From Ramlibacter sp. (GTDB taxonomy: Bacteria; Pseudomonadota; Gammaproteobacteria; Burkholderiales; Burkholderiaceae_C), in assembly GCA_023701085.1 (NCBI GenBank), contig JAMPXR010000053.1, forward strand, positions 1 through 10,171: a stretch of DNA of 10,171 nt. The letters are read 5' to 3'. Both the position numbers and the translations under genes were made by a program. This document shows positions 2,309 through 8,815 of this stretch, in pieces. Under the pieces are notes generated by a model. That model had not been told where the DNA came from and ran no database searches. It saw nothing but the letters and a program-made list of their open reading frames with translations. The stretch's first letter is position 1, and each line of letters starts with the position of its first letter.

Positions 2309-4144
2309 ATGGCGCCCAGTCAAGGCAGGGACAACCACGCGCGCATGCACGCCGGCTTCGGCTGGCGGGTCCCCGAGTACTTCAACATCGCGCAGGCATG
2401 CTGCACGGAATGGGCGCAGCGCCCCGGCGCGGGCGAACGCATCGCGATCCGCGCCCACGGGGCCGGGCCCGGCGCGCAAACCCTGTCCTACCTCGAATTG
2501 CAGCGGCGCGCCGACGCGCTGAGCAACCTGCTCGCGAGCCTGGGCGTGCGCCGCGGCGACCGGGTGGCGATCGTCATGCCGCAGCGTTTCGAAACGGCGA
2601 TCGCCTATATGGCGGTATTTCAGCTCGGGGCCGTGGCCATGCCGCTGTCCATGCTGTTCGGCCCCGATGCGCTCGAGTACCGCTTGCGCGACAGCGACAC
2701 GACGGTGGCCGTGTGCGACGAAAGCTCGATCGCCAACCTGCTCGCGGTGCGCGCCCAGTGCCCGGCCTTGCGCACCCTGATCGGCGTGGGCGCGGCGGCG
2801 GCGCAGGCCGACCTGGGCTATGAAGTCGAGACCGGCCGGCAGCCGGCCGGTTTTGCCGCCGCCCGTACCAAGGCCGACGAAGGCGCCGTGCTGATCTACA
2901 CCAGCGGCACCACCGGCCCGCCCAAGGGCGCCCTGGTTCCGCACCGGGCGCTGATCGGCAACCTGCCCGGCTTCGTGTGCAGCCAGAACTGGTTCGGCTT
3001 CGCGCCCGGTGCTGATGGGACTCCCGCCCCCGCGCGGGGGAGGGCCGGGGTGGGGGCGGGCACGTACGGGGCAACGCCCAATGCTGGAGACCAGAACACG
3101 CAAGTGTTCTGGTCTCCAGCAGATTGGGCCTGGACCGGCGGGCTGATGGACGCGCTGCTGCCCACGCTGTATTTCGGCCGTTCCATCGTCGCGTACAACG
3201 GGCGCTTCAGTCCGGAGCTGGCGTTCACGCTGATGCAGGAACATGCGGTCACGCACACCTTCCTCTTTCCCACGGCCCTGAAGGCCATGATGAAGGCGTT
3301 TGCGCAGCCGCGCGCCCACTTCCGCCTGAAACTGCAAGCCGTCATGAGCGCCGGGGAGGCCGTGGGCGACGCCGTCTTCGCCTACTGCCGCGACCACCTG
3401 GCCGTCACCGTCAACGAGATGTTCGGCCAGACCGAGATGAACTACGTGGTCGGCAACTGTTCGATGAACGGATGCACCGACGGCGGCATCGGCTGGCCGG
3501 CCCGGCCCGGCAGCATGGGGCGGCCCTATCCCGGCCACCGCGTGGCCGTGATCGACGATGACGGCAACGAATGCCCGGTGGGTGTGCCGGGCGATGTCGC
3601 GGTCCATCGGTTCGACATCCACGGCGATCCCGACCCGATCTTCTTCCTCGGGTACTGGAAGAACGAGGGCGCGACCCGCGCCAAGTTCACCGGCAACTGG
3701 TGCCGCACCGGCGACCTCGCCACCCGCGACGAAGACGGCTACCTCTGGTATCAGGGACGCGCCGACGATGTGTTCAAGGCGGCCGGCTACCGCATCGGGC
3801 CGAGCGAGATCGAGAACTGCCTGGTCAAGCATCCCGCGGTGGCCAATGCCGCCGTCGTGCCCAAGCCCGACCGCGAGCGCGGCGCGCTGGTCAAGGCCTT
3901 CGTGGTGCTGGCGCCCGAGTTCGCGGCGGCGCGCGCGCAGTCCGGCGCGGCGACGGCGGGGTTCGACGAGCAACTGGTGGCCCGCCTGCAATCGCACGTG
4001 CGGGACAAGCTCGCGCCTTACGAGTACCCCAAGGAAATCGAGTTCATCGACGCGTTGCCGATGACCACGACCGGCAAGATCCAGCGCCGGGTGCTGCGCC
4101 TGCGGGAGGAGGAGCGGGCGAGGGCGGTGGGCGGCGGGGCGTGA
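2309..4144 (+). CDS. AMP-forming acyl-CoA synthetase with an in-frame repeat insertion
   Basis: The 611-aa enzyme belongs to the ANL adenylating superfamily. It activates a carboxylic acid to acyl-AMP with ATP, then transfers it to CoA. The overall look is of medium-chain or aromatic acyl-CoA synthetases; the exact substrate is unknown. Motifs in order are the P-loop YTSGTTGPPKG (197-207), FWSPADWAWTGGL (267-279), NEMFGQTEMN (369-378), and TGDL with the ribose-binding Asp469. They continue with the hinge and C-terminal domain entry GRADDVFKAAGYR (to 495) and TTGK with catalytic Lys590. All key residues are present. Residues ~232-265 (A-P-G-A-D through N-T-Q) are an extra low-complexity Gly/Ala/Pro stretch where relatives normally have a short linker. 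It is encoded by the repeats at 3021-3060 and 3076-3129. The frame is intact on both sides, so the gene is probably expressed, but effects on folding or activity are unknown. The start is set by AAGGAGG 6 nt upstream. Confidence 0.95.
   Translation: MAPSQGRDNHARMHAGFGWRVPEYFNIAQACCTEWAQRPGAGERIAIRAHGAGPGAQTLSYLELQRRADALSNLLASLGVRRGDRVAIVMPQRFETAIAYMAVFQLGAVAMPLSMLFGPDALEYRLRDSDTTVAVCDESSIANLLAVRAQCPALRTLIGVGAAAAQADLGYEVETGRQPAGFAAARTKADEGAVLIYTSGTTGPPKGALVPHRALIGNLPGFVCSQNWFGFAPGADGTPAPARGRAGVGAGTYGATPNAGDQNTQVFWSPADWAWTGGLMDALLPTLYFGRSIVAYNGRFSPELAFTLMQEHAVTHTFLFPTALKAMMKAFAQPRAHFRLKLQAVMSAGEAVGDAVFAYCRDHLAVTVNEMFGQTEMNYVVGNCSMNGCTDGGIGWPARPGSMGRPYPGHRVAVIDDDGNECPVGVPGDVAVHRFDIHGDPDPIFFLGYWKNEGATRAKFTGNWCRTGDLATRDEDGYLWYQGRADDVFKAAGYRIGPSEIENCLVKHPAVANAAVVPKPDRERGALVKAFVVLAPEFAAARAQSGAATAGFDEQLVARLQSHVRDKLAPYEYPKEIEFIDALPMTTTGKIQRRVLRLREEERARAVGGGA
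3021..3060. repeat. GC-rich REP-like palindromic repeat inside the acyl-CoA synthetase gene
   Basis: The inner part is a perfect palindrome CCCCCGCGCGGGGG (3027-3040). Alternative outer arms CCCGCCCCC (3023-3031) and GGGGGCGGG (3052-3060) are also complementary. The minus-strand segment CACCCCGGCCCTCCCCCGCG is the hallmark of a dispersed proteobacterial repeat usually found between genes (CCCTCTCC...GGAGAGGG with CCGGGGTGAGGG). Here it is translated in frame as part of residues 238-251. Family membership is from recall of that common pattern, not from a search. Confidence 0.7.
3076..3129. repeat. Long inverted repeat with GCAA loop covering the FWSPADW codons
   Basis: Left arm 3083-3099 (GCTGGAGACCAGAACAC) is exactly complementary to right arm 3104-3120, with a 4-nt loop GCAA (3100-3103). 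Beyond a 2-nt bulge (AG, 3121-3122), GCCCAAT (3076-3082) pairs with ATTGGGC (3123-3129). That makes 24 base pairs in all. The right arm encodes Val266 to Ala274 of the synthetase, including the conserved FWSPADW. The left arm encodes a nonconserved stretch ending NAGDQNT. No T-run follows, so it is not a typical terminator. Confidence 0.9.
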
Positions 4145-5372: not shown

Positions 5373-5864
5373 ATGGCCAGGAAGGAACACGTCAGCGAAA
5401 CGCCGGCCACCTCGCTGCTCAAGGCGAACAAGGTGGACTTCACCGAGCACCCCTATGAGTACCTGGAACACGGCGGGGCCCAGCACAGCGCGCAGGTGCT
5501 GGGCTTCGATCCCTTCACCGTGATCAAGACGCTGGTGATGGAGGACGAGAAGGGCAAGCCGCTGCTGGTCCTGATGCACGGCAACCGCAAGGTCTCCACC
5601 AAGAACCTGGCGCGCCAGATCGGCGCCAAGTCGGTCGAGCCGTGCCGGCCGGAGGTGGCGAATCGCCACAGTGGATACCTGGTGGGAGGCACATCGCCGT
5701 TCGGCACGCGCCGCGCGATGCCGGTGTACATCGAGGAAACCATCCTCGCCTTGCCCCGGATCGCGATCAACGGCGGCCGGCGCGGCTACCTGGTCGGCCT
5801 GGACCCGCAGGTGTGCGTGCGATTGCTGGCGGCGAAACCGGTGAACTGCGCGCTGGCAGAATAG
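5373..5864 (+). CDS. ybaK: YbaK/EbsC-family Cys-tRNA(Pro) deacylase
   Basis: A 163-aa cytoplasmic editing enzyme that hydrolyses Cys-tRNA(Pro), mischarged by prolyl-tRNA synthetase, in trans. The single YbaK domain spans nearly the whole protein. The essential lysine is Lys52 in the block FTVIKTLVM, and the glycine-rich substrate loop SGYLVGGTSPFG is at 100-111. A second conserved glycine segment, AINGGRRGYLVGL, follows. Length and motif order match E. coli YbaK (159 aa). ATG at 5373 is preceded by an AGGCGGG ribosome site. The ATG at 5368 is in another frame. The gene sits 26 nt after tas and 30 nt before plsY, all on +, suggesting one operon. Other deacylated substrates of the wider YbaK/ProX group are possible. 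Confidence 0.92.
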   Translation: MARKEHVSETPATSLLKANKVDFTEHPYEYLEHGGAQHSAQVLGFDPFTVIKTLVMEDEKGKPLLVLMHGNRKVSTKNLARQIGAKSVEPCRPEVANRHSGYLVGGTSPFGTRRAMPVYIEETILALPRIAINGGRRGYLVGLDPQVCVRLLAAKPVNCALAE

Positions 5865-8173: not shown

Positions 8174-8815
8174 TCAGTACCGCCGCTCGAGCACCATCTG
8201 GTCGTTGTTGCGCGTCATCTGGAATCGGCCGAGGAAGCTGTTGCCCAGCAGTACATACGGCATCGCGGCAGGCAGTACGGCGGCGGAGACGTCATGGATC
8301 TCCACGTCTGCGATGCGCACCGAACCGAGCTTGACGTGCCAGACCGCCACGGTGCCGTTGGCCGTGCTGCCCGCGCCCAGCCGGCCCTCCTTGTAGTTCA
8401 GGCCGATGCGCTGGGCCTCGGGCACGCCAATCGCGACCGACGTGGCGCCGGTGTCCACCAGGAACTGCACCGCCTGGCCGTTGATGGCGCCCTGGGTGGT
8501 GAAATGGCCGCCGCTGCCCGCCGTGAGCACGATGCGGCTGCCGCGCCCCGCGCCCGCGCGGGCGCCGACGCTGGCGGGCGCGTCACCCACGCGCAGCGTG
8601 TGGTGCTTGCCGGCGATGTCGACCACCGCCTGGTCGCCGTGGGTGGAGACGACCTTGACCCCCTGGTGCGTCTCGCCGGGCGCCACCGATTTCGGCGCGG
8701 TTCCATCCACGATCAGCAAGGCCCGCGTCCCCAGCATGCCCTGCAGCGTGACGGTCTGCGCGATCGCACCCGCGCACGACAATACCGCCGCCCAACCCAG
8801 GAACGTCTTCATCAT
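8174..8815 (-). CDS. Periplasmic retropepsin-like aspartyl protease (clan AA)
   Basis: The 213-aa product has a signal peptide (MMKTFLGWAAVLSCAGAIA, cleavage likely before Gln20). Residues ~21-80 form a small beta-rich region (ALLIVDGTAPKSV, GVKVVS, TLRVGD) that recalls the periplasmic GspC/PulC homology fold. Residues ~92-213 are a retropepsin-like domain of the TIGR02281 type. The catalytic motif is FLVDTGATSVAIG with Asp121, and the flap-following motif is VLLGNSFLGRFQM near the C-terminus. Retropepsins act as homodimers, each subunit giving one aspartate. The native substrate is unknown. ATG codons at 8815 and 8812 are both possible starts; neither has a good Shine-Dalgarno. It lies 37 nt after yajQ and 17 nt before the MFS gene on the same strand. 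A lipobox reading (VLSC14) is unlikely because the preceding stretch is too short. Confidence 0.88.
   Translation of the reverse strand: MMKTFLGWAAVLSCAGAIAQTVTLQGMLGTRALLIVDGTAPKSVAPGETHQGVKVVSTHGDQAVVDIAGKHHTLRVGDAPASVGARAGAGRGSRIVLTAGSGGHFTTQGAINGQAVQFLVDTGATSVAIGVPEAQRIGLNYKEGRLGAGSTANGTVAVWHVKLGSVRIADVEIHDVSAAVLPAAMPYVLLGNSFLGRFQMTRNNDQMVLERRY

Follow-up and report, generated by a model that had tools for sequence, protein, structure and literature searches.

Four families of palindromic repeats recur in frame in one loop of an acyl-CoA synthetase from a Ramlibacter and related bacteria, and one of them carries an arm resembling its host gene

The synthetase and its variable loop

The window, by which we mean the whole stretch of 10,171 nucleotides analyzed here (Ramlibacter sp., contig JAMPXR010000053.1), encodes on its plus strand an AMP-forming acyl-CoA synthetase with an insertion (Table 1). 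As the initial annotation had it, the frame stays open throughout, with TSGTTGPPKGA before the inserted segment and FWSPADWAW after it. The protein has the features of an ANL acyl-CoA synthetase, that is, an AMP-binding domain (PF00501, 216 bits), a C-terminal domain (PF13193, 75 bits), and the P-loop motif; among the 25 NCBIfam families listed, it scores below every curated cut-off. Its best solved match is human ACSM2A (3c5e; Foldseek E value, 9e-48), in which the loop region spans about 19 residues versus about 52 in the query by sequence alignment. Also in the window, both on the minus strand, are a retropepsin-like aspartyl protease gene (8174-8815; PF13975, PF13650) and a gene for a DUF2927 protein with a Sel1 repeat (328-1296).

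Table 1. Coordinates of the synthetase gene and of the parts of its insertion (window numbering)
Feature	Position	Strand	Basis
AMP-forming acyl-CoA synthetase (ANL superfamily) carrying the insertion	2309..4144	+	Reading frame open across the insertion; PF00501, PF13193; best Foldseek match 3c5e
TSGTTGPPKGA P-loop motif, preceding the insertion	2900..2932	+	Translated reading frame; homolog alignment
Variable loop, residues 232-266 (35 residues; 11 in short-loop homologs)	3002..3106	+	Homolog alignment
REP-a palindrome: 9-base arms 3023-3031 / 3036-3044, 4-base loop 3032-3035	3023..3044	+	Inverted-repeat search
REP-a G-rich strand with at least four G-runs, fitting the G3+N1-7 quadruplex motif; conserved 3' tail to 3063	3036..3060	+	
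Left hairpin arm, inserted; inverted copy of the native codons on its right	3076..3099	+	
Hairpin tip GCAA	3100..3103	+	
Right hairpin arm: native V-FWSPADWA codons, conserved in insertion-free homologs	3104..3129	+	

The suggestion that the insertion forms a flexible surface loop agrees with structure prediction. Of two AlphaFold2 models, the first was poor (mean pLDDT, 59); the second, built with more diverse rows (mean pLDDT, 79.9), renders residues 228-263 as a low-confidence coil (pLDDT below 50) between a helix (212-227) and a strand (266-268). We would expect the synthetase to retain its function while gaining a flexible loop.

A palindrome followed by a half-native hairpin

Residues 232-266 are encoded by an in-frame REP-type palindrome plus a hairpin, half of which is native. 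The initial annotation had recognized the segment as low-complexity residues 232-265, one residue short of its actual extent, and had named both a REP-like palindrome and a long hairpin; both are present, but the hairpin is not wholly inserted, as its right arm, from 3104 onward, belongs to the gene. Homologs lacking the insertion conserve that arm as well, and so it is the left arm that was added. The palindrome with its G-rich tail spans 3023-3063, and the hairpin spans 3076-3129. The core of the hairpin is an inverted repeat matching at 18 of 18 bases (3082-3099 / 3104-3121), extending to arms of 24 and 26 bases (3076-3099 / 3104-3129) with one 2-base gap, and a second, G+C-rich inverted repeat pairs 3023-3038 with 3045-3060. 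Single-strand folding of the region 3010-3135 is much stronger than that of dinucleotide shuffles (z scores, -7.5 for DNA and -8.2 for RNA), and none of 200 shuffles folded as well in either form. At 3023-3044 the palindrome falls within the broad definition of a REP, a short G+C-rich palindrome of about 20 to 40 bp, and its in-frame position within a conserved gene is that of the Rickettsia palindromic elements (RPE). We regard this anatomy as firm and well supported, and we word the mechanism proposed below conditionally.

The loop as a recurrent docking site

Is the long loop merely an ordinary Gly/Ala/Pro-rich feature of this lineage, with no insertion at all? Among the best 120 of 7,997 homologs, the spacing from the P-loop motif to FWSPADWAW is 32 to 36 residues in 44 and 40 to 102 in 76 (58 in the query); the linker is short, then, in many close homologs. 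The majority of long loops in that set speaks for an ordinary lineage loop; nevertheless, the long loops consist of different dispersed repeats, in different frames and from different families, beside homologs with an 11-residue loop. This diversity contradicts the ordinary-loop explanation, which we have dropped and to which we give very little credence. The initial annotation had proposed that a conserved segment with no further genomic copies would be such a loop, and here the outcome is mixed: the window's own draft genome has a single strict copy, yet the segment is the opposite of conserved.

We classified the loop in 214 non-redundant rows, made up of the query, 112 proteins from the best 120 of 7,997 homologs, and 101 loci (some from at least 80 listed); because the rows were drawn from similarity searches, they are biased toward the query. 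The loop is short in 92 rows, repeat derived in 103, and otherwise long in 19. The repeat-derived loops fall into four families, namely, REP-a (77 rows; PSPARGRAGVGAG-like), b (9; SRDPS..WIPDQVRDD), c (13; HPNPLPQAGEG / LRERAGVR), and d (4; PEPVEG / STGSART), with the qualification that one locus classed as c, L018, has a remnant and an arm of the REP-a type. On a FastTree phylogeny computed with the loop left out, loop class changes at least 65 times (mean of 112 when shuffled) and the REP-a state at least 41 times, 25 of them forced by starred branches; homologous exchange between species may account for some of the class changes. Close sisters differ in class, as in L014 (c) and P0119 (a), or in L048 and L053 (c) and L051 and L056 (short). 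The L014 loop, from the synthetase of genome G021, is also a composite of two repeats, in which a second, unrelated palindrome directly follows NWFGF (ASHRDPLVGHDAD), besides the c-type REP.

The 112 loci that have both motifs yield 102 distinct loop DNA sequences, every one of which preserves the frame and contains no stop; therefore, the loop is translated. This observation bears on the idea that the segment is a translational bypass element, in which ribosomes hop over the hairpins. The message does contain two strong adjacent hairpins, but bypass would free the loop from the constraint on frame and stops, and all 102 loops keep both. We dropped that explanation as hardly credible.

For families d and c, the repeats in the loop are also dispersed elsewhere in the genomes concerned. 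The d pattern matches 203 times in G004 and 25 times in G033, both of which have a d-type synthetase loop; the G033 matches include the synthetase and recG (C35:64248; C25:65897, 65914). Likewise, c palindromes number 46 in G001 and 13 in G021, both with a c-type loop. The synthetase loop has been repeatedly filled, in frame, by four repeat families, probably by whichever reside in the genome. The initial annotation was thus right about an in-frame, protein-tolerated insertion of palindromic DNA in a betaproteobacterium (the genus of Ramlibacter-like genomes) and wrong to see it as singular: the loop changes rapidly and also takes three other repeat families.

REP-a in other genes and genomes

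In the window's own draft genome, the strict REP-a pattern occurs once, in the synthetase, and REP-a palindromes with perfect 9-base arms number zero; a weaker copy lies on contig C499, and a degenerate one lies inside recG (L208). In relatives, perfect palindromes number 4 to 31 (six of the seven genomes searched). The strict 24-base REP-a tail was found by pattern search in 3 of 399 genomes sampled across the family; beyond a handful of genera, therefore, the strict form is uncommon. The C499 copy (L003; G000:C499, match 5653-5689) and L250 (G043:C2, near 483003) are REP-a-like and share the same junction, upstream of a start that appears, from its motifs, to be LivF-like; the L250 copy has a strong 3' hairpin (score, 34), and the L003 copy is degenerate.

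REP-a also sits in frame in recG, glpK, the hydantoinase B gene (HyuB), aceF, and lpd; other REP subtypes are found in aroA, uvrA, an aidB-like gene, and an ABC transporter, and a copy in hrpA has a 7-base palindrome loop and an arm score of 26. At the recG site, between QRLALR and LLMMTATPIPR, 53 of 120 homologs have 12 residues, 1 has 11, and 66 have 18 to 73. Some long recG loops contain repeat-like peptides outside families a to d (P0181, P0193, P0234, P0236; P0157, P0160, P0162, P0167, P0176, P0187), with sequences such as PPQGDAAPSGGSDPRSGGAWG and ELDLVQGQGGTG.

The draft status of the genome (543 contigs, 80.9% complete, from a metagenome) might suggest that the hairpin is a fold-back artefact of assembly. 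The same architecture is found in assemblies of 1 to 40 contigs (G057, G009, G008) and in independent species, which contradicts that suggestion; we have dropped it and see practically no chance that it is correct.

An arm matched to its own gene

Where does the inserted arm come from? By sequence comparison, its closest match is the gene in which it lies and, in most cases, that gene in the same species. In 28 loci, a set that includes 6 c-type loci without arms, the left arm scored a mean of 32.6 against its own right arm and 24.6 against those of other loci, a difference reached in 0 of 5,000 permutations. Among the 22 synthetase loci with an arm score of at least 28, the locus's own right arm fitted better than that of the nearest unarmed relative in all 22; against the closest armed relative whose right arm differs, it fitted better in 16, worse in 3, and equally in 3. 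In some loci the inserted arm carries changes matching those of the gene: L068 (DWTW and an unusual leucine codon), L018 (serine AGC), and L063 (TTT phenylalanine). The match is likewise specific to the host gene, with mean scores of 36.7 for the synthetase, 28.9 for RecG, 29.0 for GlpK, 24.0 for HyuB, and 26.0 for AceF, versus means of 9.7 to 11.2 against other genes (highest single value, 21).

The arm is polar. A fold-back score of at least 20 was found on the 3' side in 41 of 109 REP-a-like copies, and none of these 41 also reached it on the 5' side; shuffled 3' regions averaged 10.3 and reached at most 19 (n = 150). Fold-backs of that score on the 5' side occur in seven other copies: five c-type synthetase entries, one in uvrA, and L185. 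In L185 (G013:C1:822600-825700), a long run of C, which may reflect slippage or assembly, adjoins a REP-a pair. The hairpin center lies 31 to 49 bases beyond the REP in 33 of 35 armed copies in named genes and 21 and 67 bases beyond it in the other two. Arms of forward-oriented copies (synthetase, GlpK, HyuB) duplicate the right flank, and those of reversed ones (RecG L126, L129, L131, L132, L165, and L172; AceF L176) duplicate the left. Thus, the side of the arm follows the orientation of the REP, not transcription. In RecG, the arms of forward copies are weak (scores, 16 to 22) and contain few native bases, and a plain flank-arm comparison in this gene, made without anchoring, separated the classes poorly.

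Arms also go with a subfamily. Where the palindrome loop is 4 to 5 bases long, 38 of 53 copies are armed, versus 2 of 69 with a 3-base loop; the 15 copies unarmed by score among the former include some that are tandem or intergenic. The Fisher test gives a p of 6e-17 on nonindependent copies, a value that overstates the case because the copies are related, the synthetase is oversampled, and the rule was noticed post hoc. The same division is seen within single genes: in HyuB, L157, L169, L171, and L175 are armed and L191 (3-base loop) is unarmed, and in AceF, L176 and L253 are armed and L178 (3-base loop) is unarmed. Copies were called coding by a crude rule of open frame and third-position G+C, which missed genic synthetase copies such as L005, L042, L044, L063, and L072.

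These data can be set against a history in which one or a few old insertions were inherited and exchanged by recombination, with the hairpin kept by selection on mRNA structure. In its favor, there are only two main places where the arm starts (38 rows of the QNTxV type and 39 of the ETQSV type), and wobble pairs in the arms exceed A-C mismatches by 13 to 5. However, the tip types hardly follow the tree, as no fewer than 20 changes are required across 77 rows, versus 22 to 30 in the ten shuffles listed, and short, REP-a, b, and c loops are found in close sisters. Selection on mRNA structure is also at odds with an arm side set by REP orientation, which in RecG and AceF places the arm upstream of the REP in the mRNA. 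The wobble excess is a weak hint of selection at the RNA level, one that a template-switch model does not need, and mRNA-structure selection was dropped as the reason for the arms. We consider this history as a whole unlikely, though it deserves a hearing.

A proposed origin

The reading that we favor, and hold to be probable without being confident of it, is that an armed REP-a element sits in frame in a disordered surface loop where resident palindromes come and go, and that its arm arose by template switching. In this model, the loop would tolerate almost any in-frame peptide, so that resident palindromic repeats keep entering and leaving, and selection would retain only frame-preserving copies. 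A polymerase copying the G-rich strand would arrive from its 3' side and stall; the nascent end could then snap back, at a small local palindrome, onto the flank just copied; and synthesis would resume on the template, leaving a hairpin with an outer arm of host sequence. Template switching is described as creating and maintaining perfect stem arms (PMC8794818), and quadruplex repeats are described as unstable in E. coli in an orientation-dependent manner (PMC10530614). Stalling followed by a template switch would produce just the layout observed. All 21 REP-a rows tested have a quadruplex motif on the G-rich strand. Of six c-type loops, four match a loosely defined quadruplex motif on their coding strand, and all four are without an arm; the quadruplex alone therefore does not explain the arm, and we rejected it as the sole cause.

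Could a transposase do the work instead? A Y1 enzyme of the RAYT/TnpA-REP type might move the element as single-stranded DNA, with the arm serving target pairing or choice. Genomes of the genus do encode Y1 transposases (57 of 59 have a match exceeding the Pfam cut-off, and 53 of these have just one), and published work describes the IS200/IS605 enzymes as acting on single strands and the dissemination of REPs as lacking an explanation (PMC8266576). On the other side, RAYT genes are described as typically flanked by REPs (PMC2817692), the arrangement that marks the RAYT-associated GTAG REPs, but REP-a flanked the Y1 transposase in 0 of 12 surroundings fetched, and RAYTs are not known to produce a flank-copied arm of about 24 bases. 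Nor can a GTAG tag be seen beside 3023-3063. The link between REP-a and the Y1 transposase of the genus was dropped on this count, and we think the transposase explanation quite improbable. One Y1 (RAYT-like) transposase gene in the window's own genome (L237; G000:C23:919-1248) has a glutamate-synthase-like gene next to it and no REP-a on its flanks.

Relation to known repeats and significance

The initial annotation had held in-frame palindromes in genes to be mainly a matter of Rickettsia; this does not stand, as intragenic REPs are described in many bacteria, several of them in DNA repair genes (Di Nocera et al. 2013, PMC3733652). The GTAG/CGTC REPs of that report resemble those described here in being short in-frame palindromes in conserved genes, for which its authors suggest a role as linkers or loops. 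Two different REPs occur there at about one recB site in two Xanthomonas species, in comparison with four families and many species here, and the excerpted description mentions no target-copied arm, unlike REP-a. The RPE are similarly in-frame palindromes in conserved proteins, found in 19 reading frames, with an active guanylate kinase among the products (PMC2229807); as described, however, they measure 105 to 146 bp and have terminal inverted repeats, whereas here a REP of about 40 bp is joined to a host-derived arm. Copies of the betaproteobacterial repeat element (BRE) are also G+C-rich, with some copies wholly within coding sequences and 29 copies in Polaromonas sp. JS666 (PMC3110155). 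The REP-a pattern matches only once in JS666, and identity of REP-a with BRE is therefore not supported. Finally, template-switch hairpins (Monttinen and Loytynoja 2022, PMC8794818) share the reverse-complement copy beside its source and the near-perfect stem; those described are in RNA genes, whereas here they stand beside a REP, on a fixed side, in protein-coding genes. In searches of the open-access literature, we found no report of a docking loop for multiple REP families or of a target-copied arm.

A more far-reaching reading is that armed REP-a is a separate class of gene-dwelling mobile palindrome. Its palindrome loop would set it apart (4 to 5 bases, versus 3 in its intergenic cousins), it would live mainly in frame in recurring loops (synthetase, RecG, GlpK, HyuB, AceF, Lpd), and each insertion would copy the host flank 3' of the G-rich strand. 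We offer this as a tentative possibility that we would not yet back. If it were true, the hairpin footprint would record how REPs spread, a process described as unexplained (PMC8266576).

The polar, target-copied arm is a molecular footprint of the insertion or its aftermath; its polarity is testable, and the unarmed subfamily offers a matched control. The docking loops, in turn, provide hundreds of naturally occurring insertions of random peptides into a single enzyme, from which one could learn which peptides a fold will accept and how to build sites tolerant of insertion.
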